A DNA stretch of 40,529 nucleotides from Microcaldota archaeon (GTDB lineage Archaea; Micrarchaeota; Micrarchaeia; Micrarchaeales; Micrarchaeaceae). Shown here piece by piece: positions 68-34,216 of the stretch. Location of the stretch: positions 1-40,529 of the forward strand of contig JAKAVF010000003.1 in assembly GCA_021827605.1 (NCBI GenBank), read 5' to 3'. Numbering within the stretch: position 1 is the first letter of the stretch; each line of letters begins with the position of its first letter. Both the position numbers and the translations under genes were made by a program. The notes below the pieces were generated by a model. That model had not been told where the DNA came from and did not search any database. It was given only the letters and a program-made list of their open reading frames with translations.

Positions 68-103
68 AGTGAGGGTTGCATTATCCATTCAACAGAGCAA
101 TAA

Positions 104-111
104 TTTATAAA
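104..111 (+). promoter_or_regulatory. TATA box of the large surface-protein gene
   Basis: TTTATAAA lies 37-44 nt before the ATG at 148. That is the spacing expected for an archaeal TATA box serving a short-leader transcript. It also argues against the upstream TTG at 76, which precedes the box. Confidence 0.55.
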
Positions 112-147
112 CTTTCGCATGCATTATTTTTGCAGGGTGCAATTGTT

Positions 148-6134: not shown

Positions 6135-7862
6135 ATGATAAACAAGACCATTGCCGACATTTTCAATGAAATCGCGGCCATGCTGAGCCTCGATGAGAGG
6201 CCGACGGTCAGATTCGAGGTCCGCGCATATCAGAAAGCAGCGCTTACCATCGGGATGATGCAGGAGCCGATAGAGGACATCTACAAGAAGGGAGGAGTTA
6301 AGGCACTCATGGAACTTCCCGGAGTCGGAAAATCCATCGCGAGCCACATAGAGGAATATGTCAGGACAGGCAGGATCAAGAAGTACGATGAGCTCAAGAA
6401 GAAGTACCCCATCGACATGGCTGGCCTCACATCCATATCTGGGATGGGAGCGAAGCGGGCGATGATACTTTACAAGAAGCTCGGAATCAAGAACATAGAT
6501 GACCTAAAGAAGGCGCTCGCACGGCACGAGATAAGGGCCATCGAGGGATTCAGCGAGAAGAGCGAGGCGTTAATCGCAAAGGGTCTTGCGTTCAGGGAGA
6601 TGAGCAAGGGTAGGATGCTCATTTCTGACGCTCTTCCTGTCGGTGAGGGAATAGTGAAGGCGCTGATGGACAGCGGGCTGGTTGAGAAGGTCATGATAGC
6701 CGGGTCAGCCAGAAGGATGAGGGACACGGTCGGCGACCTCGACATCCTTGCAATATCCAAGGAGGGCCCCAAGGTAATGGATTTCTTTACCAAGCTCCCA
6801 GCGGTCTCCGGGATTGTTGCAAAGGGGCCGACAAAGTCCACAGTCAACCTTGACATTGGAATATCATGCGACCTGCGTGTGCTCGAGCCGGAGAGCTTCG
6901 GCGCAGCTGTGCAGTACTTCACTGGCAGCAAGGACCACAACATACAGACGCGAACAATCGCGGTGAAGAAGGGATACAAGCTGAATGAGTATGGCCTGTT
7001 CGACAAGAAAGACAGGAATATAGGAGGCGTTGAGGAGGCAAGCATCTATGAAAAGTTGGGGATGCAGTGGATGCCGCCGGAGATGCGCGAAGCGCGCGGG
7101 GAGGTGGAGTTGGCACTGCAGCACAGGATCCCAAAACTGGTCGAGCTAAATAACATAAAAGGGGATCTCCACAGCCACACGAAAGCCACAGACGGAGACA
7201 ACACCCTTGAGGAGATGGCCAGCGCCGCGATGGAGCTGGGATACGAATACATTGCGAATACGGACCACACGAAGAGCCTCTATGTAACCAAGGGGATGAA
7301 CGACAAGCAGTTCGACGCGCATTTCAGGAAGATAGACAATTACAACGACTCGCTTAAGGGAAAGTTCAGGGTGCTCAAGGGCGCCGAGATAGAGATACTG
7401 AAGGACGGCTCCCTGGACCTTGCACCCCATACTCTAGAGAAGATGGACTGTCTTGTCGCGTCTGTACACTCCAACTTCAACATGCCGAAGAAGGAGATGA
7501 CCGACAGGGTGATCAAGGCTCTCGACTCAGGATACGTGCACATACTAGGCCATCCGACCGGCCGTGTCATAGGGGTCAGGTCAGCCTATGAAATCGACCT
7601 CGAGAAGGTCGCCGAAGCCGCCGAGAGAAACAGGGTCGCCCTCGAGGTGAACTGCCTGCAGAGGTTCGATCTAAACGACACCAACATACTGCTTACATCG
7701 AAGTACAAAGTCAAATATGCTGTCAACACCGACGCCCACCAGACGGGCCACTTCGATATGATGAGGTACGGCGTGGGAACTGCGAGGAGGGGATGGCTCA
7801 CAAAGGAGAGAGTGATAAACGCCCTCCCACTGGGAAAACTGTTGAAAGAGCTCCACAGATGA
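6135..7862 (+). CDS. polX: DNA polymerase X family protein with C-terminal PHP domain
   Basis: Family X polymerase for gap filling in base-excision repair, with a metal-dependent PHP nuclease/phosphatase domain; 575 residues is the usual PolX length. The N-terminus has helix-hairpin-helix elements (ELPGVGKSIASHIEEYV, SISGMGAKRAMILYKKLG). The polymerase palm has the paired Asp in GDLDIL (D201, D203) and a third Asp at about 246 (SCDLRVL). The PHP domain starts with GDLHSHT (D344, H346, H348) and continues through NTDHTKS, SVHSNF, GHPTGR and NTDAHQTG, so the metal ligands look intact. A TATA-like CTTTTAAATGC at about 6089-6099 and a GAGAGGGGAG purine tract near 6117-6126 support this start. Confidence 0.95.
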   Translation: MINKTIADIFNEIAAMLSLDERPTVRFEVRAYQKAALTIGMMQEPIEDIYKKGGVKALMELPGVGKSIASHIEEYVRTGRIKKYDELKKKYPIDMAGLTSISGMGAKRAMILYKKLGIKNIDDLKKALARHEIRAIEGFSEKSEALIAKGLAFREMSKGRMLISDALPVGEGIVKALMDSGLVEKVMIAGSARRMRDTVGDLDILAISKEGPKVMDFFTKLPAVSGIVAKGPTKSTVNLDIGISCDLRVLEPESFGAAVQYFTGSKDHNIQTRTIAVKKGYKLNEYGLFDKKDRNIGGVEEASIYEKLGMQWMPPEMREARGEVELALQHRIPKLVELNNIKGDLHSHTKATDGDNTLEEMASAAMELGYEYIANTDHTKSLYVTKGMNDKQFDAHFRKIDNYNDSLKGKFRVLKGAEIEILKDGSLDLAPHTLEKMDCLVASVHSNFNMPKKEMTDRVIKALDSGYVHILGHPTGRVIGVRSAYEIDLEKVAEAAERNRVALEVNCLQRFDLNDTNILLTSKYKVKYAVNTDAHQTGHFDMMRYGVGTARRGWLTKERVINALPLGKLLKELHR

Positions 7863-7922
7863 AAGTTTAAATATCCTCTCTCTAAATAAAAAACGACAAA
7901 TTAGCACAAAGCACGTGTTCTA

Positions 7923-9368
7923 ATGGTATCCCTGGCAATCATGGACAAGATAGCACGCTTTATCCCTACGATTAGGGGTCCAGCCAATCCGCTCTCGCTT
8001 AGGGAGAAGATGGTCTGGACTGCTGGCGTGCTTGTCATCTATTTCCTGCTGTACAGCACAGTTGCATATGGAGTCAACCAGCAGACCCTTTCGCAGCCGT
8101 TCCTCCAGCTCATCAGCATAGTGTTCGCGGGAAAGATAGGAAGCCTCATCACCGTTGGCATAGGCCCTATCGTGCTCTCAAGCATAGTACTACAGCTGCT
8201 TTCGGGTTCAGGACTGTTCAAGCTTGACATGAACGACCCGGTGCAGAAGGCCAGGTTCCAGACGCTGCAGAAGTCCGCCGCGATAGCGATAGCGGTGATA
8301 GAATCCGTCATATATGTCGCAACAGGCTTCGTTCCGATATCTGGGCCAGCTTCCTTCGGCATAGTTGCGCTGCAGCTTGCCATCGGCGCAATAATGATCA
8401 TATTCCTCGACGAGATAATGACCAAGTGGGGGATAATGTCGGGAATCAACATATTCATAGCAGCCGGGGTTTCCTATTCAATCGTTGCAGGAACCTTTTC
8501 CATCCTCCTTCCAGGTGCGGCAGAGGCGCTGAAGAACGGAGGGGCATCAGCCCTATCCAGCGCAGTCCTCGCATTCGGGCCGCTCTTCTTCGCGATAATA
8601 ATATTCCTGATCAGCATCTACGCCTATGAGACCAAGGTGGAGCTGCCTCTGGCATTCGAGCAGCTCAGAGGAGTGGGTGGCCGTCTCCCAATACCTTTCT
8701 TATATGTCAGCGTTCTTCCCGTAATACTCGCATCGTCGCTTGAGCTCTCTCTTACTGTCTGGTTCCGGTTCCTTGCGGGGATGTCTGGAAACATCGTCAA
8801 GTTCTTCGCGCTCTATGTCCCAAGCAGCGCAGGCCCGCAGCTAACCGGAGGTCTGCTTTATCTGATATCGCCTGTCTTCCCATCCCCGTATCCGTCGCCT
8901 TATGGAATAGGTGGATACGGCGCATACTTCAACTATCTCGCGACGTCGTCATCGCAGCTCTACCTTCCATGGGGAGGGATGATAATGGTCCCGGAATTCG
9001 TGCACATAATACTATACACCCTAGTCCTTGTCGGGCTGTGCGTGATATTCGGGAAGTTCTGGGTCGGAATGACAGGCCAGAGCCCGAAGGAAATGTCTGA
9101 GCAGCTTGGCGACATGGGCTGGCAGATTCCCGGATTCAGGAGAGACCCCAGAATAATAGAAAGCGTGCTGAACAAGTATATCCCAACCGTGACGGTACTG
9201 GGAAGCATATTCGTCGGGCTTCTCGCTGCGCTCGCCACCCTGACGGGAGCGATAGGGACAGGAATGGGAATACTGCTTACAGTTGGAATAATCTACATGG
9301 TGTACCAGCAGCTGCAGCAGGAGCGCCTCTTCGAGACGTATCCGCTTCTGGACAAGATCATGAAGTAG
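7923..9368 (+). CDS. secY: Protein translocase subunit SecY (Sec61 alpha)
   Basis: SecY forms the membrane channel for protein export and insertion. The 481 residues contain ten hydrophobic helices in the normal order. TM1 (VLVIYFLLYSTVAYGV) is followed by the plug region and TM2 (PIVLSSIVLQLLSGSG), then the cytosolic DPVQKARFQTLQK loop. GRLPIPFLYVSVLPVILASS precedes TM7, and a long cytosolic loop after TM8 (FWVGMTGQSPKEMSEQLGDM) is the region that binds the ribosome. TM9-10 follow. The ATG at 7923 is used; a second in-frame ATG at 7941 is possible. An AT-rich CTAAATAAAA near 7882-7891 may be the TATA box. It stands outside the ribosomal-protein operon where secY often sits. A divergent paralogue is encoded at 27181-28404. 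Confidence 0.95.
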   Translation: MVSLAIMDKIARFIPTIRGPANPLSLREKMVWTAGVLVIYFLLYSTVAYGVNQQTLSQPFLQLISIVFAGKIGSLITVGIGPIVLSSIVLQLLSGSGLFKLDMNDPVQKARFQTLQKSAAIAIAVIESVIYVATGFVPISGPASFGIVALQLAIGAIMIIFLDEIMTKWGIMSGINIFIAAGVSYSIVAGTFSILLPGAAEALKNGGASALSSAVLAFGPLFFAIIIFLISIYAYETKVELPLAFEQLRGVGGRLPIPFLYVSVLPVILASSLELSLTVWFRFLAGMSGNIVKFFALYVPSSAGPQLTGGLLYLISPVFPSPYPSPYGIGGYGAYFNYLATSSSQLYLPWGGMIMVPEFVHIILYTLVLVGLCVIFGKFWVGMTGQSPKEMSEQLGDMGWQIPGFRRDPRIIESVLNKYIPTVTVLGSIFVGLLAALATLTGAIGTGMGILLTVGIIYMVYQQLQQERLFETYPLLDKIMK

Positions 9369-9392
9369 CGCAAGCTCTGCAGGCTGCGCTCT

Positions 9393-9401
9393 CTTTATAA
9401 A
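9393..9401 (+). promoter_or_regulatory. TATA box of the class III signal peptide protein
   Basis: CTTTATAAA lies 30-38 nt before the ATG at 9431, consistent with a nearly leaderless transcript. Confidence 0.55.
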
Positions 9402-9430
9402 TCTTTCATCCTCAAGTAATTCTAGATTTG

Positions 9431-11065
9431 ATGCGCTCCAATAAGCTAAGGCAGCAGTCTGCGATAGAATATCTCATGACATATGGGTGGGCGATCCTTG
9501 TCATCGTCGTTGTGCTTGCGTTATTGTTACTGATGAACATATTCAATACCGGGACGTTCACTACCGCAGGCTGCGAACAGCAGCCAGGCTTCCTCTGCAG
9601 CAACCCGGTGCTCAACACATCTGGCTATCTGAGCATGAGCGTTGGCAGGAACGGCGCAGCGCTGAACGCGACCGGAGTCGCATGCACGTTCAACAACACC
9701 GTCCCGACATCCTTCAGTGCAATACCTACGACGCAGATGCTCAACGGGTTCACATACCATCTGCTGTTCCACTGCCAGATTCCCCAAAGCTCGATCGGCA
9801 GCTGCTTCAGCGGAACGGTGTGGGTGGAGTATACCGAGCAGGGCCAGGCCGGGCTTGTAGGCGAGATCGGAAGGGTAAATGCATGCGTCAAGACGAGTGG
9901 TGTAGTCACTACCTCTGCAGCAACTACCGCATCAACCACCTCCACGACAACATCCACCACCTCCACATCCGCATCAACCACTTCCACCACATCCACCACC
10001 ACGTCCACCACGACCTCAACGACAACCATAGGCGTCAGTATACAGTATGTCCCAATAACCATCACGAATGGCGAGAGCTCTCCGACTCCAGCCCCATTCC
10101 AGCAGTCCCTTGCCATAGACAGCGCAGCGTACAGCAGCTACATCAACAGCAACTGGCAGAATGTAGAATTCACTACTGGCGCAGGCGCCACAGGCACCAT
10201 CCTGCGGGCTTGGATTGAGGCGAATGCGTCCAACACCTCTTTGAACACTCCGGTGTGGGTAAACCTTCCAAGTGGGATATCGGGCAGCAGCAGCGTGACG
10301 ATATACATGGACTTCATGCCCACAAATGTGATGAACGCGACGTGTGCTGCCGGCGCGAATCCAGAAACAAGCCCATCCACATGCGTTACGGGAGAAGCAC
10401 CGCAGCTCTCTTCATCGTATGGCGAATACGACAATGGAAACAGCGTGTTTACGTTTTATGATGGTTTCGCAGGTACATCCCTTAGCTCAGAATGGACTGT
10501 GAGCACGGTAGGCGGCGGTGCAACAGCAACTGTGAACGATGGACTGACAATCCAGACGACGCAAACCTCTTCAGGAATAGGGATATTCAGCTCTTCCAGC
10601 TTTGCCTACCCCATGGTTGCGGAGAGCGATATTACCTCCTATTCAAACAACTGTGGAGGCCCCTATACAGGAATATTTGAGTCCTTAAACAACGTGATGG
10701 ACACGCAGAACTACGCCGAACCTGAAAACGCTTATCTGCTTTCTCTCGGCGGTTCTGGCACCAATATAGGCGCCTTTACGATTACAACGCCCTCCGGAAG
10801 CTCCAACCTCTATTCCGGCGAACCTATTCCGTCATACCCATTCATCTTGGGGGTAACGTGGGTAACCACTGGGAACGAGGTTGCATCAATCGGCACTACC
10901 AACTATGCTGCAAGTGACACCACGCTATCGGTTGGCAACTATTATGTCGGAGTGGCGAACAATGCCGGTGGATGCGTTGCAACAGGGACCTACCAGTGGT
11001 TCAGGGGCAGGGCGTACCCGCCAAACGGCGTCATGCCAGGATTCAGCTTCGGCAGTGTTGCGTGA
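9431..11065 (+). CDS. Surface protein with class III (archaellin/pilin-type) signal peptide, Thr/Ser linker and lectin-like domains
   Basis: The 544-residue product starts with a short basic leader and KLRQQSAIEYLMTYGWAILV, a class III signal peptide cleaved by an archaellin/pilin-type peptidase just before the hydrophobic helix. That helix would assemble into a filament core or anchor the protein. A globular Cys-containing part follows, then a Thr/Ser-rich stalk (about residues 160-200, likely O-glycosylated). Next comes a DUF2341-like domain (VPITITNGES to VWVNLPSGISG), then a concanavalin/laminin-G-like domain beginning FYDGFAGTSLSSEWTVS and ending RGRAYPPNGVMPG. The ATG at 9431 is preferred over the TTG directly before it. 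The window lacks the peptidase and assembly ATPase. Carbohydrate binding is inferred from the domain type. Confidence 0.75.
   Translation: MRSNKLRQQSAIEYLMTYGWAILVIVVVLALLLLMNIFNTGTFTTAGCEQQPGFLCSNPVLNTSGYLSMSVGRNGAALNATGVACTFNNTVPTSFSAIPTTQMLNGFTYHLLFHCQIPQSSIGSCFSGTVWVEYTEQGQAGLVGEIGRVNACVKTSGVVTTSAATTASTTSTTTSTTSTSASTTSTTSTTTSTTTSTTTIGVSIQYVPITITNGESSPTPAPFQQSLAIDSAAYSSYINSNWQNVEFTTGAGATGTILRAWIEANASNTSLNTPVWVNLPSGISGSSSVTIYMDFMPTNVMNATCAAGANPETSPSTCVTGEAPQLSSSYGEYDNGNSVFTFYDGFAGTSLSSEWTVSTVGGGATATVNDGLTIQTTQTSSGIGIFSSSSFAYPMVAESDITSYSNNCGGPYTGIFESLNNVMDTQNYAEPENAYLLSLGGSGTNIGAFTITTPSGSSNLYSGEPIPSYPFILGVTWVTTGNEVASIGTTNYAASDTTLSVGNYYVGVANNAGGCVATGTYQWFRGRAYPPNGVMPGFSFGSVA
9908..10028 (+). 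repeat. ACN/TCN low-complexity tract encoding a Thr/Ser stalk
   Basis: About 120 bp of near-repetitive ACC/ACA/TCC triplets encode runs such as TTSTTTSTTSTSASTTST. The tract joins the pilin-like N-terminus to the lectin-like domains. It is a candidate for replication slippage and for dense O-glycosylation of the product. Confidence 0.8.
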
Positions 11066-11134
11066 ATTTGGCTCAGTTTGCAAATGAGCAGCCGCTATGT
11101 TGTGTCATTGCCACCGTACAGAAGTGAGCGTAAT

Positions 11135-11209
11135 TTACAGTTCTCCGACTCTCCTCTTCTGCGCTCTCTTCAATCGCTTTCGCCTTTTCTTCTTCCACTT
11201 CCAGCGCAT
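11135..11209 (-). CDS. rpl41e: Probable ribosomal protein eL41
   Basis: A 24-codon minus-strand ORF starts at ATG 11209 and ends at TAA 11135. It encodes a peptide beginning MRWKWKKKRRKRLKRAQKRR. This matches the eL41 pattern (M-R-x-K-W-x-K-K-R-x-x-R-L-K-R), a tiny helix that sits at the ribosomal subunit interface. It is too short for ordinary gene callers and lies in what otherwise seems a 277-bp gap between two plus-strand surface-protein genes. An AT-rich stretch upstream (11285-11300) could hold its promoter. The same frame stays open upstream with another KWKKK segment, so a slightly longer product is possible. The call rests on motif similarity over 15-20 residues. Confidence 0.65.
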   Translation of the reverse strand: MRWKWKKKRRKRLKRAQKRRVGEL

Positions 11210-11342
11210 TCTTCCTTTCTTCTTCCATTTCCTAGGTATGCTTCCCAAACATAACACCGTAGAATTACGAATAACTATCTATCAGATACAAATAAATACC
11301 TAATTGAGTGAATCTAATTGAACCCATTGGTTGGTAGTCTTC

Positions 11343-12449
11343 ATGGCAGGAGTAAGCAAGGGGCTAATTACGTACATCGTAATGGTCGTCATCGTGATAT
11401 TGGTGTGGTATCTCAGCACCGGCTTCAGGCTACCTGGCGGGCAATCATCCACGACCACGACGACAATATCTGGCCCTTCTACTTCATCCGTATCAACCAC
11501 GAGCATAATGTATATCTACCCGTGCTCAAACTTTGATGAATTTACGCAGGCCAATAACACTACGGTCACGAACGAGTGCAACGCCTCCTCAGGATATCTC
11601 GGCCTATGGGTGGCGAGCGGGAACTCCCAGTACGAGAAGGTATTGATAAAGGGGCTTTCCGACAACAAGACTTACATAAACCAAACTGCAAACTACTCAT
11701 GCACGACGTTCTATTCGAACTTCTCCGTCTCGAACCAGATTTATTCGATCTCGTTAACAACAGGGCCGCTTGCCAGCAACACCCTTACCTCTTGCACGCT
11801 CGCACGCGCAAAGCTGAACACAACCCTCTTCCCTCCACCTACAATATACACTAACGTTTACAATGGTAACTTCATGAATGGAGAATATACCGGTTGGTCG
11901 CTGTATGGGAAGGGATTCGGCACCGCTCCTCTTAACATAACGAAGGCAAACGAGAACACCACTTCGCAATGCTATGTCGGTCAGCCGTGGACAGGATACG
12001 TAGGCTCTTACATCGCAACGACATACAACTGCGGCCTGAGCAACGCTCCTGGGAACATTACATCAAGCCTGTTCTACGCGAACCAGCCATTCCTTAACTT
12101 CAAGATAATAAGCCCCCAGGACAACTTCCTGTATGTGGAAATATTGTACAACAATACCCCATACATAATCGCGCACTACAACACGTTCAACATTTCAAGC
12201 GGAAGCACGTGCAATGTAACCAACCCATTACCGAATTCAACTGGAAGGAATTCATCCGCGTGCGCCTCTACCACCTTCAGGAATGCCAGCATCCCGCTGG
12301 TAACCGTAATCAACAAGCCTATTCAGGTAAGGGTTGTGGCAGACACGCTGAACCAGCAGACCTACATCGCGGCCGGGGACTTTTCCCTTGGTGCAAAGCC
12401 GAAGCAGGACCAGGGAATACTATACGGACCCTACAATTTCACGCATTGA
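11343..12449 (+). CDS. N-terminally anchored extracellular protein, unknown
   Basis: The 368-residue product has one N-terminal membrane helix (LITYIVMVVIVILVWYLS), a short Ser/Thr-rich linker, and a large extracellular part with many N-x-S/T sequons and several Cys residues. The centre contains a beta-rich segment (NGNFMNGEYTGWSLYGKGFG) reminiscent of carbohydrate-binding or jelly-roll modules, but I cannot assign a family. The ATG at 11343 is preferred to a TTG at 11331 because it places the basic residue just before the helix. Together with the preceding class III protein it forms a pair of probable surface glycoproteins. Confidence 0.7.
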   Translation: MAGVSKGLITYIVMVVIVILVWYLSTGFRLPGGQSSTTTTTISGPSTSSVSTTSIMYIYPCSNFDEFTQANNTTVTNECNASSGYLGLWVASGNSQYEKVLIKGLSDNKTYINQTANYSCTTFYSNFSVSNQIYSISLTTGPLASNTLTSCTLARAKLNTTLFPPPTIYTNVYNGNFMNGEYTGWSLYGKGFGTAPLNITKANENTTSQCYVGQPWTGYVGSYIATTYNCGLSNAPGNITSSLFYANQPFLNFKIISPQDNFLYVEILYNNTPYIIAHYNTFNISSGSTCNVTNPLPNSTGRNSSACASTTFRNASIPLVTVINKPIQVRVVADTLNQQTYIAAGDFSLGAKPKQDQGILYGPYNFTH

Positions 12450-24645: not shown

Positions 24646-25338
24646 TCAAAGGATCTTTGCTATCTCGTCAGGAGCGTACTGCTTGAAGCCTGCCTTCTTC
24701 GATATGACAGCTACGTCGAGGCTATTTTCGGTGAGCTTTCCAGCCACTTTCTTCATCACCCCTAGGGCGAGGTGCAGTGCATCGTCGAGCGGCATGTTTT
24801 CCTTGTATTCCCTCATTATGAGCTCCTGCGCAGCCTGCTTTCCTGATCCAATCGCGTCAGCCTTGTAACCGAGGAACGACGCTCCGGCATCTATCTCGAA
24901 CAGCTTCGGGATTTTGTCAAATCCGCCAAGAAGCAGGGATATCGCATAAGGCCTCATGCCAGCATACTGGGTGAAGACCTGCATCTCCTCAGCTATGTCG
25001 CGAGCCACGGTCTCGACGCTTTCCGTCTCGTCGTACAGCATCCTGTGCGACTGCGTCTTGTGCCTCATTATGTTTATGAGGTGAAGCCCGTCTGAGACTA
25101 AGCCTGAATAGGTTGCGCCTATGTTCGCGTCTATCTTGAATATCTTCTGAACAGTTGCGGGTATGGCAAGAGGCTCTGTTATGTTCTTGTGCGCTACCAG
25201 CACGACTGCGTCGGCTGCTATCATCCCTATGGAAGTTGCTCCCTTCCTTACTGCTTCCCTTGCGTAATCAACCTGGAACAGCCTTCCGTCTGGGCTGAAC
25301 ATTGCACCTCTGTCATAAGCCTGTATGTTTGGATACAT
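24646..25338 (-). CDS. psmA: Proteasome subunit alpha
   Basis: Outer-ring subunit of the 20S proteasome. From the ATG at 25338 the 230-residue protein begins MYPNIQAYDRGAMFSPDGRL and continues FQVDYAREAVRKGATSIGM, the alpha signature. Later blocks include FTQYAGMRPYAISLLLGGFD and the gate helix region GYKADAIGSGKQAAQELIM. A GGTGG site lies 5 nt before this ATG; an upstream in-frame codon at 25392 would add 18 atypical residues and is rejected. A TATA box at 25421-25429 implies a leader of roughly 55-60 nt. It is the first gene of the exosome superoperon. No beta subunit is in the window. Confidence 0.95.
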   Translation of the reverse strand: MYPNIQAYDRGAMFSPDGRLFQVDYAREAVRKGATSIGMIAADAVVLVAHKNITEPLAIPATVQKIFKIDANIGATYSGLVSDGLHLINIMRHKTQSHRMLYDETESVETVARDIAEEMQVFTQYAGMRPYAISLLLGGFDKIPKLFEIDAGASFLGYKADAIGSGKQAAQELIMREYKENMPLDDALHLALGVMKKVAGKLTENSLDVAVISKKAGFKQYAPDEIAKIL

Positions 25339-25420
25339 AATTCCACCAATTAACGTGAATCTTGAGCGTAATTGTTGAAGATTTCTCTTCAAAACAAGAT
25401 AAAGTATTAGTGGTATAAGC

Positions 25421-25458: not shown

Positions 25459-27108
25459 CTATCTTTCAAGATTGTGCTCAGCACGTATGAGGGCGGCCAC
25501 GAACTCTTCCGGCGTGCTGGCGAGGCTTCCGCGCTGCGCCACTCCCCTACCTGTTATATCGGTGTTTATCTCCTGTATAGCACTTCTAATCGATCCTAAT
25601 TCATCCGTGAATATCTCATCATACCCTTTAAAGCGCGGGTTCTTAATACGGAAATTCTGTATGGTAAGACTAATATCGTCCATGTCGAGGTTTTTTTCCG
25701 TAAGCAAGTCATCGAAGAGCTCTTGCGCCTTTTCTCTTTTTTCTGCTTCCCTTCTGCCAAACTTCAAGTATAGCGGTTGGCCGCCAGGATTTGCGCTGTA
25801 TGTCACATTGCATTTGTCCCGCTCGATACCGACGCGCAGCCCAGCTCCAGAAAGTGCTGCCCTGCTTATCCCGCCTAGCGCATCTGAAACAATCGCCAAC
25901 TCCCTGATTGTCGCTATAGGAACAGCCCGCGACCTTGCCATCGTCATCTCCACAATCTTTCTCCTCTTTTCTGGGTCATCAACTGGAGCGGCAAAGAGTA
26001 CTTTCTCTCGGCTGGAATAGTCTATGTAACCATCATCGCGCAGGGGAAAACGCTGCACAGATAGGCCGCCGTCGAAGTAAAATAATGGTATATCAGTAAC
26101 CTTAAATGCCCTAGCGATCCTGTCTCTAGTTTCGTTAATCAAGCTTAATAATAGCGTTGCAGCGTAATTCCTTAAACTAAGATCAAATAACCTATAATCA
26201 TCATCGTAACGTTTACCCCCGCTATTGGCGAAGAACGCCGTCAGGACTTTTATCATCGCCTCTTTTCCCATTGTCGCTACTGGCTGCGTATCACTGCCCT
26301 CCTGCTCTTCGGTAAGTGGATTCTGAAGCAAAAGCCTCTCAATCCTGCGCTCATCCCACAGTTCCTTTGCCTTGCTAATGATGAGGTCAGGCCACTGCGC
26401 AAGCACAAGCGGCATGAACTCCTTTCTGACGCACCAGGCTGTCAAGTCCGGCGTCTTCTCATCAAAGAATATCTTGAGGTAATCGTCTGTCATGCCCCTA
26501 TAGTCAAGGTTCAGATAGCCGCCCAGCTCATTTTCATCGTATGTCTTGTTGAGGTGCTCCTTAAAGAACTCCTCGTCATAGGCATCTCCGATGCATCCGT
26601 CCAAAAGGAGTGCAAACCGTTTGCGCATCTCATCATTCTCGAAGCGCATAGCCGTCATTGCCGGGCCCTCAGCCATCACAAAGACTATCTTTGCTCCAAT
26701 CCTTTCAGCCTCGCTCTTGAAGCCTTCCAGGAACTCAATCACCATTTTTTCGGTCAGCTTTCCGCCACAGAGCCTGGAAGCCTTCATCTCCTCGATTAGG
26801 TAGTGCACGTCGTCGACTACTATCATTTCGGGTTTTTTGTTATCTACAAGCACGGTAAAGGCGATCTCTCCATTGTCAATTTTCCGTTTGTCAAACTCAA
26901 TAATCCTCATCGGCTTTTCCCTAGAGTGGAAAATAATAATGTGGGTCTTTCCACAACCACGCCCACCAACAATCACTCCCGGGCTCCTTCTCTGTTCGAT
27001 ATTCGCCATGAGGAATTGCGAAGGAATACCCTCAAAACAGCTAGTTATCTGGTCGCTCGAATATTCTGCCCTGCCACGCAGGTTAGCTGCCGTTATAGTT
27101 TTTTGCAT
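25459..27108 (-). CDS. Unrecognised P-loop ATPase
   Basis: The 549-residue protein starts at ATG 27108. It carries a Walker A motif GGRGCGKT (residues 48-55, K54) in GVIVGGRGCGKTHIIIF and a Walker B PEMIVVDDVHYL (D99, D100). A sensor-like strand AKIVFVMAEGPAMTAM comes next. A helical middle (KELWDERRIERLLLQNPLTE) and a C-terminal half with winged-helix-like pieces (ATIRELAIVSDALGGISRAA) follow. The layout resembles AAA+/STAND ATPases of the ORC/Cdc6 or archaeal ATPase type, but no family is clear. It has its own promoter and precedes psmA by 120 bp; no membrane segment is present. A TTG at 27117 would add three residues and is not needed. Confidence 0.7.
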   Translation of the reverse strand: MQKTITAANLRGRAEYSSDQITSCFEGIPSQFLMANIEQRRSPGVIVGGRGCGKTHIIIFHSREKPMRIIEFDKRKIDNGEIAFTVLVDNKKPEMIVVDDVHYLIEEMKASRLCGGKLTEKMVIEFLEGFKSEAERIGAKIVFVMAEGPAMTAMRFENDEMRKRFALLLDGCIGDAYDEEFFKEHLNKTYDENELGGYLNLDYRGMTDDYLKIFFDEKTPDLTAWCVRKEFMPLVLAQWPDLIISKAKELWDERRIERLLLQNPLTEEQEGSDTQPVATMGKEAMIKVLTAFFANSGGKRYDDDYRLFDLSLRNYAATLLLSLINETRDRIARAFKVTDIPLFYFDGGLSVQRFPLRDDGYIDYSSREKVLFAAPVDDPEKRRKIVEMTMARSRAVPIATIRELAIVSDALGGISRAALSGAGLRVGIERDKCNVTYSANPGGQPLYLKFGRREAEKREKAQELFDDLLTEKNLDMDDISLTIQNFRIKNPRFKGYDEIFTDELGSIRSAIQEINTDITGRGVAQRGSLASTPEEFVAALIRAEHNLER

Positions 27109-27137
27109 AAATGTCAAAAATCCTGTGGTGCATCCTG

Positions 27138-27180: not shown

Positions 27181-28404
27181 CTACGGTTTTGCCGAGACCA
27201 CTTCTCTGAGGAAGTATACCACAGCCGCAGCCGCTACCATGCCGGGACTCAGCCCGAGTATCGGTGTCAGGCTTGCCAGGAATGCGACAGCCGCGCTGCC
27301 GAATAGCCATTCCCTCCTCGGTATCAGATGCTCGAGCTTCAACCTTCTAGCTATCAGCTTCGTCCAGGCCCATGCAATCAGCACCGAGACGACGATGAGG
27401 AGCAGCGAACTCAATAGAGCATGCATATATTCCGGCACAAGAACCACGTTTGTTCCTGAAAGATAAAGATTGCTTGCGGAGCTTCCCAAGTAGTTCATGT
27501 AGGCCGCATAGCCTCCTATCCCGTATGGAGCGGCGAATGGAAGCGGGAATCCGTTGTCTGAAAACAGGTAGACTATGCCGCCGACAGGCACGCTGCTCTG
27601 CTGGCCGAACTGCTGCGTCTGGGCATATGTGATCCAGATATCGTTATTTGTCCCGTTTGCGAGTATTATCCCCGTAAAGACGATGCTTATCAGAAAGCCC
27701 GCAAGAATGTAAGAGAAGTAAACAGGGTAGAGGAATGGAATCGGTATCCTCCTCCCGCTGCCGTTGAAGAGCGTGCCTGCAACGTGCCTCTGTGCTTTCA
27801 TCGTCTTGAACACCCTGTATCCAAGGAAGAAGATAATTATCGTGAAAAAGGTCGGGGCGAAGTTTATGAGCGTCGTTGCAAGCGCCGAATTCCCGCCGGA
27901 ACTGAGGGTAGAGGCCGCACCATCCAGCTGGAACAGGAACCACTGCAGGAACGTAGCAGCGAATATGGCAACCATGAAAAAGTTTATCCCAGACGCAATG
28001 CTGTTTTTGAGCGCATAGTGGTCCAGGGCGACTATTAGGATGCCGAAGATTATCCACTGCATCCACTGCACCGCAATAAGCGTGACATCCGGCGATTGAT
28101 AGAGGACGGCAGGCGCTATCAGCAGCACGATTATAAGCGCTATTGCAATAACATTCCTGCTGTCGAGGAATGGTATGCTCTCTTTGCTCTTCTCCTTTTG
28201 CACATAGCCAAGGCCATAAAACAGCATAGCCAGGGTAGTTACCAGGATCAGTATGGAATAGCCCGGATCGCCAAGCCCGGATTCAAATAACGAGAATGGA
28301 GATGGCTCTCCATACGGTGCTATCAAGAACAGGACAAATGCGATTGCAGTTACGGCAAGAGCCATCTTCATCTTCTTGTCAGACAGCATCTTTCCAAAAT
28401 CCAT
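27181..28404 (-). CDS. Divergent SecY-like membrane protein (second SecY)
   Basis: The 407-residue polytopic membrane protein is clearly related to the SecY at 7923-9368. RRIPIPFLYPVYFSYILAGF corresponds to GRLPIPFLYVSVLPVILASS, PFAAPYGIGGYAAYMNYLGS to PYPSPYGIGGYGAYFNYLAT, and the KNSIASGINFFMVAIFAATF region to the normal TM4-5 region. It is about 75 residues shorter. The plug/TM2 segment is reduced and rewritten. The long cytosolic loop after TM8, which docks the ribosome, shrinks to about 20 residues (WTKLIARRLKLEHLIPRREW). It follows the Trm56-like gene by 28 nt. A GTATAAAT-type box near 28425-28432 could also give its own leaderless transcript. Role unknown: specialised insertase, channel partner or non-channel derivative. 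Confidence 0.8.
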   Translation of the reverse strand: MDFGKMLSDKKMKMALAVTAIAFVLFLIAPYGEPSPFSLFESGLGDPGYSILILVTTLAMLFYGLGYVQKEKSKESIPFLDSRNVIAIALIIVLLIAPAVLYQSPDVTLIAVQWMQWIIFGILIVALDHYALKNSIASGINFFMVAIFAATFLQWFLFQLDGAASTLSSGGNSALATTLINFAPTFFTIIIFFLGYRVFKTMKAQRHVAGTLFNGSGRRIPIPFLYPVYFSYILAGFLISIVFTGIILANGTNNDIWITYAQTQQFGQQSSVPVGGIVYLFSDNGFPLPFAAPYGIGGYAAYMNYLGSSASNLYLSGTNVVLVPEYMHALLSSLLLIVVSVLIAWAWTKLIARRLKLEHLIPRREWLFGSAAVAFLASLTPILGLSPGMVAAAAVVYFLREVVSAKP

Positions 28405-28432: not shown

Positions 28433-28957
28433 TTACTGCTGCTTGGTCTTTTCCACGTGGACCCTTCTTTCCTCTGGGACTATCTTGTACTGCGCATTCT
28501 CGAAATGCAATGAGAGTTCCCTTCCCTCGAAGAAGTGATGGAGGAAGACGGCTACCGCAGATGTGGCAGCGTGCGGCTGCGTTGTTATGCTCACGTTGAA
28601 GTCCGCCATCTGGTAAAGATTCTTCGCAGCCTCAGTGATCGTGACTATAATAAGTATGTTCTTGTAGGTCTTGAGCGTGTACTCCACCTTGTTTATTGGG
28701 ACTCCGTACCTTGTCAGGTAGACAATCTTGTAGTTCTTCTTCGTCTTCAGGAACTCCCTCCAGTTGTTGGTGAAATCGACAGAGAAGGTACCTCCCCACC
28801 TCCTGTTGAGGCTCTTGAAGTATTTTATAAGCCTGCCATTCTTCGGGGATGCGAAGGTCACGTTCGAAGCGCCGAATGCCCTGGCGGCGGTGCATAAGTC
28901 CAGGTTTGATTCGTAGGCGTTCTTCCCTATGACTAGAACAGATATCGTGTCTTCCAC
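28433..28957 (-). CDS. Trm56-like tRNA 2'-O-methyltransferase (SPOUT family)
   Basis: The 174-residue protein resembles archaeal Trm56, which methylates ribose C56 in the tRNA T-loop. The C-terminal SPOUT knot is well conserved: KIVYLTRYGVPINKVEY, NILIIVTITEAAKNLYQMAD and FNVSITTQPHAATSAVAVFL, followed by the FENAQYKIVPEE tail. The N-terminal block normally rich in Arg/Asp/Thr-Thr-His is replaced here by VLVIGKNAYESNLDLCTAAR, so RNA recognition may differ. It starts with GTG at 28957. A TATA-like TTCTTAAACC (28982-28991, minus strand) lies about 25-34 nt upstream. Confidence 0.75.
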   Translation of the reverse strand: MEDTISVLVIGKNAYESNLDLCTAARAFGASNVTFASPKNGRLIKYFKSLNRRWGGTFSVDFTNNWREFLKTKKNYKIVYLTRYGVPINKVEYTLKTYKNILIIVTITEAAKNLYQMADFNVSITTQPHAATSAVAVFLHHFFEGRELSLHFENAQYKIVPEERRVHVEKTKQQ

Positions 28958-29249: not shown

Positions 29250-31652
29250 CTAGACAGTCTGTGCATCTACGACCCTTACTCCCTGCTCGACTCTCATTAG
29301 GCGCACCCCGCTCGCGCTTCTTCCGGTCTGCCTTATCTCTGGAACAGGGAACTGTATCGAAAGACCCTTTGAATTTATCAGGAGGACGCTCTCTTCAGGC
29401 ACCACCTTCATGGATTTTACGACATAACCCGTCTTATCTTTCACTTTTAGGTTGATGACCCCTTTCCCTCCCCTTCTCTGGAGCCTGTATTCCCTGAGCT
29501 CCGTGACCTTTCCGAATCCATTCTCCGTTATCGTTGCTATGAAGTCTGTTTCCTTTGCAACGAGGACGTTGACGACCTGGTCATTGTTTCCGATCCTTAT
29601 GCCTCTGACCCCTCTTGCAATCCTGCCCATCGGCCTTACGTCGTTTTCGTCAAATCTCAGTGCCTTGCCCCTCTTTGTCGCTATGAATATCTGCGACTTC
29701 CCGTCGCTTATGCAGGTGTCGGCGAGCGTGTCTCCATCCGTCATCGGCATTGCTATTATCCCATTTGCCCTAGGCCTGGAAAATCTCTCAGCGTTTACTC
29801 TCTTTATCCTCCCCTTCCTTGTGACAAATGTCATGAAGCTCTTTTCAAATGCACGCGTGTCTATTATCTTTTCGATTGATTCTCCTTCGGCAAGCCTGAC
29901 AAGGTTGACAGCTGCCTTTCCGTGTCCATACCTGCTCGCCTCAGGAACCTGCCATGCCTTCATCCAGTAAGCCCTTCCCTTATTCGTGAGAACGAGCAGG
30001 TAGTCCTTTGTCATGCAGGCGACAATCTGCTTTACGAAGTCCCCTTCTGCGAGTTCTATTGCTATGATTCCCTTCCCTCCCCTTCCCTGCGCCCTGTACG
30101 CGTTAGCTGGCAGCCTCTTCATATAGTTCCTGCTAGTGAGAATGACCGTTGTCTCCTCGTCAGGAATCAGGTCCTCGTTCTCTATCTCCTCAAATTCCGC
30201 CTGCTCTATCCTCGTCCTTCTATCCCTTCCATACTTTTCTTTTAACTCCTTTGTCTCCTCCTTGATTATCTGGAAGACCCTGCCTTCGTTTTCCAGTATC
30301 TCCTTGAAGTTTGCTATCTTCTGCACAAGGTCCTTCTTCTCGGTTTCAAGAGAGGTGCTCTCGAGGCTCGTGAGCTTGCTGAGCTTCATGTCAAGGATTG
30401 CAGTAGCCTGCTTTTCAGAAAGAGAATACTTGCTCATGAGATGGGAGCGCGCCTCCTTTGCGTCAGAGCTTTTCTTGATTGCCGCGATGACCTCGTTTAT
30501 GTTTGCGATTGCGATAAGAAGGCCATCTACAATGTGCAGTCTGTCGCTTGCGACATCAAGGTCAAATTTCGTCCTTCTCTTTATAACTTCGAGCCTATGG
30601 TCGACGAATATCTTGATGAAGTTCCTTATATTCATGGTCATAAGGTTGTTGCCAATCACCGCGATGTTCATCACAGGGAACGATATCTGCAGTTGCGTGT
30701 GCTTGTATAGCGTGTTGAGAACTGCGTTTGCGTTCGCATCCTTCTTCAACTCAATAACCACTCTAATTCCCTCTTTTCCGCTCTCATCCCTGAGATCGCT
30801 GATTCCTTGAATCTTCTTCTCCTTTACAAGTTCAGCAATCTTCTGCACCATCGTTGCCTTATTCACGGTGTAAGGTATTTCCGTTATTAGTATCACATTC
30901 CTGTTCTTCTGCTCTTCGATAACTGCCTTCCCTCTCAATATGCAAGATCCCCTTCCTGTGAGATATGAAGCAATCAGTGCATTGTTCCTGAACACTATAC
31001 CTCCAGTAGCAAAGTCCGGTCCCTGTATGTACTGCAGGAGCTCCTGGGGTGTTATGTCCTGCTTATCAACATAAGCGATTATCGCATCGCACACCTCTCT
31101 GAGGTTGTGCTGCATTATGTTGGTTGCGAACCCCACCGCGATCCCCGCGGCGCCGTTTACCAGCAGGTTAGGGAACTTTGCGGGAAGGACAAGCGGCTCC
31201 TCCTCTGTGTTGTCGAAGTTTGGGACAAAAGGAACCGCTTTCTTTTCAAGATCCGCAAGCATCTCCTCTGCAAGTTTGTTCAATCTTACTTCAGTATATC
31301 TTTGAGCTGCAGGTGAATCTCCGTCGATGCTTCCCATATTTCCCTGTCCCTGTACAAGGGTGTGGTTCATTGAGAAATCCTGCGCCATCCTCACAAGAGT
31401 CTCATATGCAGCGAGGTCGCCGTGCGGGTGGAAGCGCCCTATTACCGTTCCAACCACCCTTGCGCTCTTTATAGTCGGCTTGTCGTGCGTGTTGCCGAGC
31501 TGCTGCATCGCGAAGAGGGTCCTCCTCTGCGCAGGCTTGAGACCATCCCTTGCGTCGGGGAGCGCCCTGCCTACAATTACGCTCATGGCGTAGTCTATGT
31601 AGGAGCTCTGCATCTCCTTCTCAATTGGCGCATCGTTTATCTCTTCTGGCAT
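29250..31652 (-). CDS. gyrA: DNA gyrase subunit A
   Basis: Type IIA topoisomerase subunit that cuts and rejoins DNA while negative supercoils are introduced. The 800 residues contain [20 protein letters not shown], the active-site Tyr in [18 protein letters not shown], and the breakage-reunion and coiled-coil domains. A C-terminal beta-pinwheel has the GyrA box [15 protein letters not shown], plus an earlier blade [16 protein letters not shown]. The GyrA box marks true gyrase rather than topoisomerase IV. Archaeal gyrases are generally regarded as acquired from bacteria. It follows a DUF218 gene by 4 nt, itself downstream of gyrB. Confidence 0.97.
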
Positions 31653-31656
31653 TGAT

Positions 31657-32298
31657 TCACTTAAGTTTGAATTTTTTCATAGTAACGTCCATGAATTTGT
31701 CATAAATCTGCTGGTTATAAAGTGCCTCTATTTCAAACGGTTCAGAAATTATGGTGTGCATACCGTTTTTGTAGTCCTTGTGGTAGTTATCTATCACGAC
31801 TTTGACATTTTTGTACTCCAACAAGCGTTTAATGTCCTTCAGCTCTATTGCAGTACCTTTCTTTTTGGGACTGTCATAGACCTTTTGTATGATTGCGTAC
31901 CACGTCTGCACAACTTCTTCCCTGTTAACGTTAAACCAACGATCAAGCACAATCCAAAATATCTTGAAAAACCTGACCGCATCGGAGACGATGATTATTC
32001 TGTTGGCGCCATCCAGGTTAACGAACTGTTTTGCGAACTTTATATTTTGCTCGGTCGTGAGGGATTGATCTTCTATATGCACTTTGACATTTGCGCCTAT
32101 AAGTGGTTTCAAATATTCTGCAATCGTACCTGCTTCTGACTTCTCCAACATGTTTTTGTCTGTATGCCCACCGCACAACACAACCTCCTCTATCCTTTTT
32201 TTGTTCACAAGTTTCGCAAACCGGTCGACATATGCTTTATACTTCGGATTGCTCTGATCAAAAAGTCCAAAGCCAAAAAGTAGCGCATATTTTGTCAT
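31657..32298 (-). CDS. DUF218 (YdcF/SanA-like) family protein between gyrB and gyrA
   Basis: The 213-residue protein has the DUF218 pattern: YALLFGFGLFDQ, then EEVVLCGGHTDKNMLEKSEA, GTIAEYLKPLIGANVKVHIE, DQSLTTEQNIKFAKQFV and RIIIVSDAVRFFKIFWIVL. In bacteria such proteins are linked to envelope metabolism, but the biochemical activity is poorly defined. There is no signal peptide or membrane helix, so it appears cytoplasmic. It lies in the gyrase operon with gaps of 10 and 4 nt and looks more A+T-rich than the flanking gyrase genes. This suggests later insertion into the operon or separate acquisition. Confidence 0.75.
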   Translation of the reverse strand: MTKYALLFGFGLFDQSNPKYKAYVDRFAKLVNKKRIEEVVLCGGHTDKNMLEKSEAGTIAEYLKPLIGANVKVHIEDQSLTTEQNIKFAKQFVNLDGANRIIIVSDAVRFFKIFWIVLDRWFNVNREEVVQTWYAIIQKVYDSPKKKGTAIELKDIKRLLEYKNVKVVIDNYHKDYKNGMHTIISEPFEIEALYNQQIYDKFMDVTMKKFKLK

Positions 32299-32308
32299 TT
32301 ATACCACT

Positions 32309-34216
32309 CTATACGTCAAGGAACTTTACCTCGCTGGAATGCTCTTCTATGAAGTGCCTTCTCTGTTCGACATCAAGTCCCATGAGTATTGTGAACATCG
32401 TGTTCGCGAGTTCTGCGTCCCCTATCGTGACCCTCTTCAGCACCCGTGCTTTCGGGTCCATTGTAGTCTCCCAGAGCTGCTCCGGATTCATTTCTCCAAG
32501 ACCCTTGTATCTCTGGACCGTTGCTTTTCCATCATGGCCTTTCATAATTTCATTAAGCTGGTTGTCCGAATATGCGTAATTTACCTCCCTCCCCTTTGTT
32601 ATTTTGTAGAGGGGTGGCTGCCCTATGTAGATATATCCTCTCTCGATGAGAGACTTCATGAACCTGTAGAAGAATGTGAGAAGCAGAGTCCTGATGTGGC
32701 TTCCATCAACGTCTGCATCCGTAAGAAGTATTATTTTCTTGTATCGTACGCTGTCCGCGTTGAACTGCTCCTTTATCCCTGTTCCAAAAGCTGTTACCAT
32801 TGTGTGCAGCTCGGCGTTTCCGAATATTTTCTCTTCTGTCGCCTTCTCCACATTGAGTATCTTCCCTCTTAGTGGCAGTATCGCCTGGAAGAACCTGTCC
32901 CTAGCCTGCTTGCTGCTTCCTGCTGCGCTCTCTCCCTCTACTATGAATATCTCCGACTTATCCGGGTCGCTTTCTGTGCAGTCTGCTAGCTTTCCCGGGA
33001 GTACAGCACCCTCAAACAGTCCCTTTTTCCTGCTGAGCTCCCTCGCCTTCCTCGCCGCTTCTCTCGCCTCTGCGGCACCGTAAACCTTGTCGATTATTCT
33101 TCCCGCTTCGGCAGGGTTTTCCTCAAAGTATCTCATGAGCTCGGAGTAGACCGCATTCTCCACAAAGGTCTTGATTGCCGTGTTTCCCAGCTTCTCTTTT
33201 GTCTGCCCCTCAAACTCAGGGTTCTGCATAAGTATGGTGATGACAGACACCAGCCCTTCCCTCGTGTCGTCCCCCTCAAGTGCAATAGTCCTGGGTTTCT
33301 TTGATGTCTTGTTGTAGTTCGCAATCGCCCTGGTAAGCGCTCCATGGAACCCGACCACGTGCGTTCCTCCCTGCGGCGTCTTTATCTTGTTTACGAATGA
33401 AAGGAGATCTTCGCTGTAAGTGTTGACATACTGCATTATTAGGTCAAGCTTGAGCGAGTCTGTCTGCCTGACCACGCGCACAGGCTTAGATACCTCCTGC
33501 TTCTTGTCCCTCATGTAGTTAAGGAAGTCCGGAAGCCCCTCCTTCGAATGGTAATCGACCTGCTTTGGAGGCTGCTCCCTCTCATCGGTGTATTTTATGA
33601 CAAGACCTGGATTGAGGAAAGCCAGATCCCTGAGCCTCTCCACAAGCTCTATCGTATCAAAGCTTCTTGCGGAGAATATCTCCTTGTCAGGCTTGAACTT
33701 TATCGTAGTGCCTGTGGCGTTGTCGGGTGCGTCCCCGATTATCTCTAGAGGGCTTACAACCCCTCCCCTGCTGAACTTCTGCCTGTAAACCTTGCCATTC
33801 CTCTTTACCGTAACTTCCGTGTATTCGGAAAGGGAATTGACTACTGTAAGACCTACCCCGTGAAGGCCTCCTGAAACCTTGTAAACCTTGCTTTCGAACT
33901 TCCCTCCGGAGTGGAGCGAGGTCATGATTACCTCAAGGGCCGGCTTCCCCTCCTTTGGTATTATGTCAACAGGAATGCCCCTTCCATCGTCGCTTATCTC
34001 TGCAACATCTACATCCTCATCCCTGGAGAGCTTTACGGTAACCGTCTTTGCATATCCTGCGATAGCCTCGTCTATTGCGTTGTCCAGCACCTCATAAAGA
34101 AGGTGGATAAAGCCCTGGCTGCCAGTGCTCCCTATATACATAGCAGGTCTTTTCCTGACTCCCTGCGGGCCGGAAAGAACCACTATGTCCTTTGCAGTGT
34201 ACTCAGTATCACTCAT
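32309..34216 (-). CDS. gyrB: DNA gyrase subunit B
   Basis: ATPase subunit of gyrase, 635 residues. The GHKL ATPase has VLDNAIDEAIAGYAKTVTVK, DDGRGIPVDIIPKEGKPALE and SGGLHGVGLTVVNSLSEYTE. The transducer has TPQGGTHVVGFHGALTRAI. The Toprim domain has IVEGESAAGSSKQARDRFFQ, PLRGKILNVEKATEEKIFG and LLTDADVDGSHIRTLLLTFF. The C-terminus is YKGLGEMNPEQLWETTMDP. It heads the gyrB-DUF218-gyrA operon. A CGATAAATAAGC stretch about 25-35 nt before the ATG could be its TATA box. Confidence 0.97.
   Translation of the reverse strand: MSDTEYTAKDIVVLSGPQGVRKRPAMYIGSTGSQGFIHLLYEVLDNAIDEAIAGYAKTVTVKLSRDEDVDVAEISDDGRGIPVDIIPKEGKPALEVIMTSLHSGGKFESKVYKVSGGLHGVGLTVVNSLSEYTEVTVKRNGKVYRQKFSRGGVVSPLEIIGDAPDNATGTTIKFKPDKEIFSARSFDTIELVERLRDLAFLNPGLVIKYTDEREQPPKQVDYHSKEGLPDFLNYMRDKKQEVSKPVRVVRQTDSLKLDLIMQYVNTYSEDLLSFVNKIKTPQGGTHVVGFHGALTRAIANYNKTSKKPRTIALEGDDTREGLVSVITILMQNPEFEGQTKEKLGNTAIKTFVENAVYSELMRYFEENPAEAGRIIDKVYGAAEAREAARKARELSRKKGLFEGAVLPGKLADCTESDPDKSEIFIVEGESAAGSSKQARDRFFQAILPLRGKILNVEKATEEKIFGNAELHTMVTAFGTGIKEQFNADSVRYKKIILLTDADVDGSHIRTLLLTFFYRFMKSLIERGYIYIGQPPLYKITKGREVNYAYSDNQLNEIMKGHDGKATVQRYKGLGEMNPEQLWETTMDPKARVLKRVTIGDAELANTMFTILMGLDVEQRRHFIEEHSSEVKFLDV

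Follow-up and report, generated by a model that had tools for sequence, protein, structure and literature searches.

A reduced second SecY with a shortened ribosome-docking loop in Micrarchaeota

Ordinarily, secY is an essential, slowly evolving gene present in one copy, and the presence of two secY-like genes in one stretch of micrarchaeal DNA raises the question of whether the second encodes a genuine SecY and what such a protein could do. The stretch analysed here (the window) comprises 40,529 nucleotides of contig JAKAVF010000003.1 from a Microcaldota archaeon (assembly GCA_021827605.1). It encodes a housekeeping SecY of 481 aa (7923–9368, plus strand; PF00344, E 5.5e-55; NCBIfam NF006341 above cut-off), and a first-pass annotation, made from the sequence alone, had reported a second SecY-like protein carrying the same motifs and about 75 residues shorter. 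We located this protein on the minus strand (27181–28404), where the reading frame runs from an ATG start at 28404 to 27181 over 407 codons with no internal stops; the IPIPFLY, PYGIGGYxAYxNYL and SGIN motifs are common to both proteins of the window, ten TM helices are predicted, and the second SecY is 74 residues shorter than the first. BLASTP aligned the two proteins at 36% identity over 250 aa (E 3e-36), and a profile comparison using hhalign, in which the second SecY and two orthologues were set against 12 housekeeping Micrarchaeota SecY sequences, gave a probability of 99.95% and an E value of 1e-37 over 389 columns spanning TM1–TM10. Thus, the second protein derives from SecY over its entire length, beyond the TM4–TM8 region seen by BLAST, and does not fall into another membrane protein family, an outcome that the annotation had left open. 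The Pfam PF00344 and NCBIfam SecY models, which recognise the housekeeping copy, miss the second one, with no match at E values up to 1. The second protein is a genuine, intact SecY paralogue, homologous over its full length, and retains the body of ten helices, the two halves and the helices of the lateral gate.

Structure prediction, also suggested in the annotation, gave a compatible picture when the second SecY was modelled on its own: AlphaFold2 (55 alignment rows) returned a model with a pLDDT of 83, a pTM of 0.83 and ten long helices (residues 9–27, 45–64, 82–101, 107–134, 139–169, 183–201, 225–250, 325–355, 363–383 and 389–405), for which the top 27 PDB matches in Foldseek were all SecY/Sec61 structures (best TM-score 0.62). 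Using the three orthologues alone, the pLDDT was 40 (too few sequences) and the result uninformative; the model therefore relies on the housekeeping SecY rows and is not independent evidence of the fold, so that it is sequence homology that carries the predicted SecY fold of the second copy.

The most uniform difference between the two types of SecY lies in the cytosolic TM8–TM9 (C5) loop, which the annotation had described as cut to about 20 basic residues. In the second SecY this loop (27307–27357, minus strand) comprises 17 residues of basic sequence (ARRLKLEHLIPRREW), whereas each of the 53 aligned housekeeping Micrarchaeota SecY, and M. jannaschii SecY as well, has exactly 42; across the seven second copies that we identified it measures 15–35 residues, and the GFR motif present in 53/53 housekeeping copies is found in none of the seven. 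The TM6–TM7 (C4) loop of the second SecY also aligns without the conserved VE[IL]PL motif. As SecYEG contacts the ribosome through loops 6/7 and 8/9 (PMC4737761), it is fair to infer from these losses that the second SecY would function without canonical ribosome docking, whilst the basic residues that persist in its short C5 loop and in C4 may still afford some residual ribosome contact. The plug segment between TM1 and TM2b (28273–28323, minus strand) is likewise reduced, as had been claimed: it comprises 25 residues in the second SecY and 24–27 across its three-orthologue group, compared to 36–39 in housekeeping copies, and the only plug helix (TM2a) in the AlphaFold2 model is a four-residue helix at 38–41. 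The four more divergent second copies exhibit plug segments of 32–40 residues, which indicates that loss of the C5 loop is general to the second copies, whilst loss of the plug is particular to the three-orthologue group. The six pore-ring positions, mapped from M. jannaschii in a part of the alignment that is uncertain, are mostly hydrophobic and not exactly conserved, with Tyr or Phe in place of I75 and Ala in place of L406; with the ring partly altered, conduction by the second SecY is not assured.

The reading that we prefer, with a probability of roughly 0.5, is that the second SecY is an accessory SecY-type channel or insertase that works without canonical ribosome docking and shares a single SecE with the housekeeping protein. 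The window genome encodes one SecE above cut-off, and a dedicated second SecE was sought there without any further match above cut-off; the second SecY would pair with the only SecE available. Since the ribosome-docking surfaces are gone and no SecA (SecA_DEAD match) turned up in five carriers of a second SecY (G008, G049, G019, G055 and the window genome itself, G000), its substrates would arrive post-translationally or be handed over by another factor, and a small set of them would be passed or inserted by a weakly gated channel or via its lateral gate. SecY is known to tolerate plug deletions (PMC8675477). We infer the conducting activity, the binding and sharing of SecE and the class of substrates alike. 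The annotation had proposed a link to particular surface proteins, which was not borne out: neither a substrate nor a partner gene linked to the second SecY was found. The window does encode large proteins with a high content of Ser, Thr and Asn that are predicted to lie at the cell surface (76–3129 and 9428–12449); one of them (9428–11065) differs strongly between the window genome and G008 (68% identity over 206 aa).

A somewhat unlikely alternative is that the second SecY does not conduct at all and instead acts as a regulator or partner, joining the housekeeping SecY or competing with it for SecE and in this manner modulating export. Such a role would suit the altered pore ring and plug, the single SecE to be shared and the observation that a full SecY is always present in the same genome as the second copy, but it does not sit easily with the retention of the channel-body and lateral-gate helices over the 389 aligned columns. 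We retain the accessory channel or insertase as the main reading, and turn to the locus and the history of the gene.

Directly upstream of the second secY, across a gap of 28 bp, lies the gene for the tRNA methyltransferase Trm56 (28433–28957, minus strand; PF01994, E 7.2e-32), and on its far side the insertion site is bounded by psmA, encoding the proteasome alpha subunit (24646–25392, minus strand; PF00227). In four congeners (G005, G006, G013 and G004) psmA comes immediately after trm56, and in a fifth (G001) psmA lies near trm56 in inverted orientation; no SecY match is present between the two genes in any of the five. The second secY occupies this site in the window genome and in G008, and the window genome additionally carries an ORC/CDC6-like AAA ATPase gene (25459–27117, minus strand; PF24389, E 1.6e-4, below cut-off), a further insertion that is missing from the G008 locus and from most of the genomes examined, G006 alone holding a partial relative. 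Near the insertion site, Pfam matches identify DNA gyrase A and B subunits (29250–34216, minus strand), here in an archaeon. A conserved link to trm56, raised in the annotation, extends no further than the sister genome G008: the second secY has unrelated neighbours in G049 and in the four remaining genomes. In G055 (L035, region 8578–11652) the reduced second SecY directly follows PolX, which stands ahead of the housekeeping secY in G008 and in the window genome (region 6135–9368); at the other loci checked, the 1.2 kb or so around secY showed no PolX. Integration linked to a tRNA gene was considered and rejected, tRNAs being absent from both the window and the G008 locus.

Comparison of the window genome with G008 reveals that the divergence is specific to this gene: the housekeeping SecY is 99% identical at the amino acid level and the other genes compared are 87–97% identical, whilst the second SecY reaches only 60%, with nucleotide identity dropping abruptly at the end facing trm56. 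The dN of the second secY is far above that of its neighbours, and its dS is about 2.3, compared to 0.5–1.4 for other genes. As faster amino acid change alone would not raise dS, the simplest reading is allelic replacement or separate acquisition of the second secY. Its dN/dS against G008 is 0.147, a rough figure given that dS is near saturation, and points to purifying selection. Thus, the second secY is probably an accessory, horizontally acquired gene under purifying selection.

In order to place the gene among its relatives, we searched the proteins of 60 related genomes and ran profiles against 164 genomes from the order and 301 from the phylum Micrarchaeota, a search whose first stage may have overlooked very divergent copies. 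Tight orthologues were recovered by protein and profile searches in only two genomes: G008, of the same genus (MAG DBS1-1.bin129, 59% identity), and G049, of another family (MAG TL1-5.bin98, 47–49%). A scan of genome contigs with an alignment of the three-orthologue type found only the MAGs corresponding to these two, and the same scan with the single protein as query gave no match. Second copies that have diverged further, and in which the C5 loop is also shortened, occur in G019, G055, G077 and G075, of which G077 (77% complete) and G075 (recorded as 5% contaminated) are the weaker cases. The second SecY is hence rare, with 7 of the 164 genomes of the order carrying one; the remaining double matches appear to be housekeeping SecY divided between matches or at the ends of contigs, and G095, a bin with 5% contamination, contains an additional copy of the normal type. 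In G075 (L139, 6585–7772) and G077 (L138, 6616–8100) the reduced second SecYs have a D-aminoacyl-tRNA deacylase gene as neighbour and an MFS transporter gene nearby, respectively, and these differing neighbours suggest repeated gain or transfer.

In the SecY tree, which had likewise been suggested, the three tight orthologues group together with support of 100/100, in a clade that spans two families and lies on a very long branch outside all housekeeping copies. Recent duplication within the genus was rejected by the AU test (log-likelihood 188 lower, p 3.5e-71), a test that is affected by long branches. A single origin of all seven second copies is favoured but not established (support 65/89), and an independent duplication for the G055 copy is compatible with the data (AU p 0.45). 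Descent from a SecY of this lineage is indicated by the retained extracellular TM7–TM8 domain (27433–27654, minus strand; predicted strands within residues 259–324), which displays GG..YL and PYGIGGY motifs as in the SecY of the order itself: its length is 63–69 residues in the second copies and 59–74 in the order's own SecY, whereas housekeeping SecY from a different family within the class has 46–52 and M. jannaschii SecY has 38 (18 aligned plus 20 added to the count, as this sequence entered the alignment as fragments lacking 20 TM7–TM8 residues); together with the PYGIGGY-type motif, this length points to such an origin. We rejected a viral or phage source, with no match in viral contigs (pattern scan) or phages (tblastn).

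The rarity of the gene, its very long branches and its dN far above that of the neighbours could also be explained if it were a functionless duplicate under relaxed constraint and heading for loss. We consider this improbable: the annotation had asked whether the protein might be in decay and present in this genome alone, but the frame is open in seven genomes, orthologues exist in two other MAGs, 60% identity is maintained at near-saturated dS with the low dN/dS given above, the fully supported clade crosses two families, and a new C-terminal segment, KLI[SA][KR]RLKLE.IP[RK][RK]EW, is conserved. Least probable is a resistance variant of, or decoy for, a SecY-attacking toxin or peptide, which would suit a mobile, fast-diversifying accessory gene with sharp single-gene divergence between normal flanks and congeners lacking a copy at the same site, but PADLOC and PHROG matches are absent, the phages and viral contigs searched hold no such protein, and toxin-like neighbours were not found.

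The accessory channel or insertase remains our main reading, and the second secY looks like a gene moving horizontally between genomes. We tentatively extend this to a mobile pool of SecY-derived channels in Micrarchaeota from which the docking loop has repeatedly been lost, and which would serve an undescribed ribosome-independent route of translocation or insertion in archaea, organisms that lack SecA; this wider proposal is less secure than the channel reading itself. To our knowledge, the driving force of archaeal post-translational export is an open question. A mobile SecY that is poor in plug and devoid of the loop, next to a normal copy, would amount to nature's own test of how much of the channel is required in the absence of a docked ribosome or SecA, and would point towards an archaeal route independent of the ribosome. 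That an ancestral SecY had no plug has also been put forward as plausible (PMC8675477).

The literature searched, which left most subscription journals outside, contains no description of an archaeal or DPANN SecY paralogue of this kind, whilst second SecY-type channels as such are already known from bacteria (SecY2, PMC12445088) and yeast (Ssh1, PMC10233368). Comparison with archaeal SecY/Sec61 alpha (M. jannaschii, 1rhz) reveals the same ten TM helices in two halves, the lateral gate and the SGI motif in TM5, but the second SecY lacks the C5 motif and the C4 VE[IL]PL motif, has a shortened plug and escapes the Pfam and NCBIfam models. Like the YidC/Oxa1/EMC3 insertases, it may act as an insertase that has no gated plug (PMC8675477); these proteins differ in topology, with a three-helix core and a cytosolic hairpin in contrast to the ten TM helices of the second SecY, which has no Pfam match, and the window genome encodes one separate EMC3/TMCO1-type insertase. 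Bacterial SecY2, of the SecA2–SecY2 system, likewise stands beside a full SecY and serves specific proteins (PMC12445088). SecY2 works with SecA2, whereas the five carrier genomes named above yielded no SecA. Ssh1 is eukaryotic and binds ribosomes, whereas the Micrarchaeota protein lacks the docking loop. The second SecY would resemble Ssh1 in being a paralogous Sec61-type channel that prefers its own set of substrates (PMC10233368).
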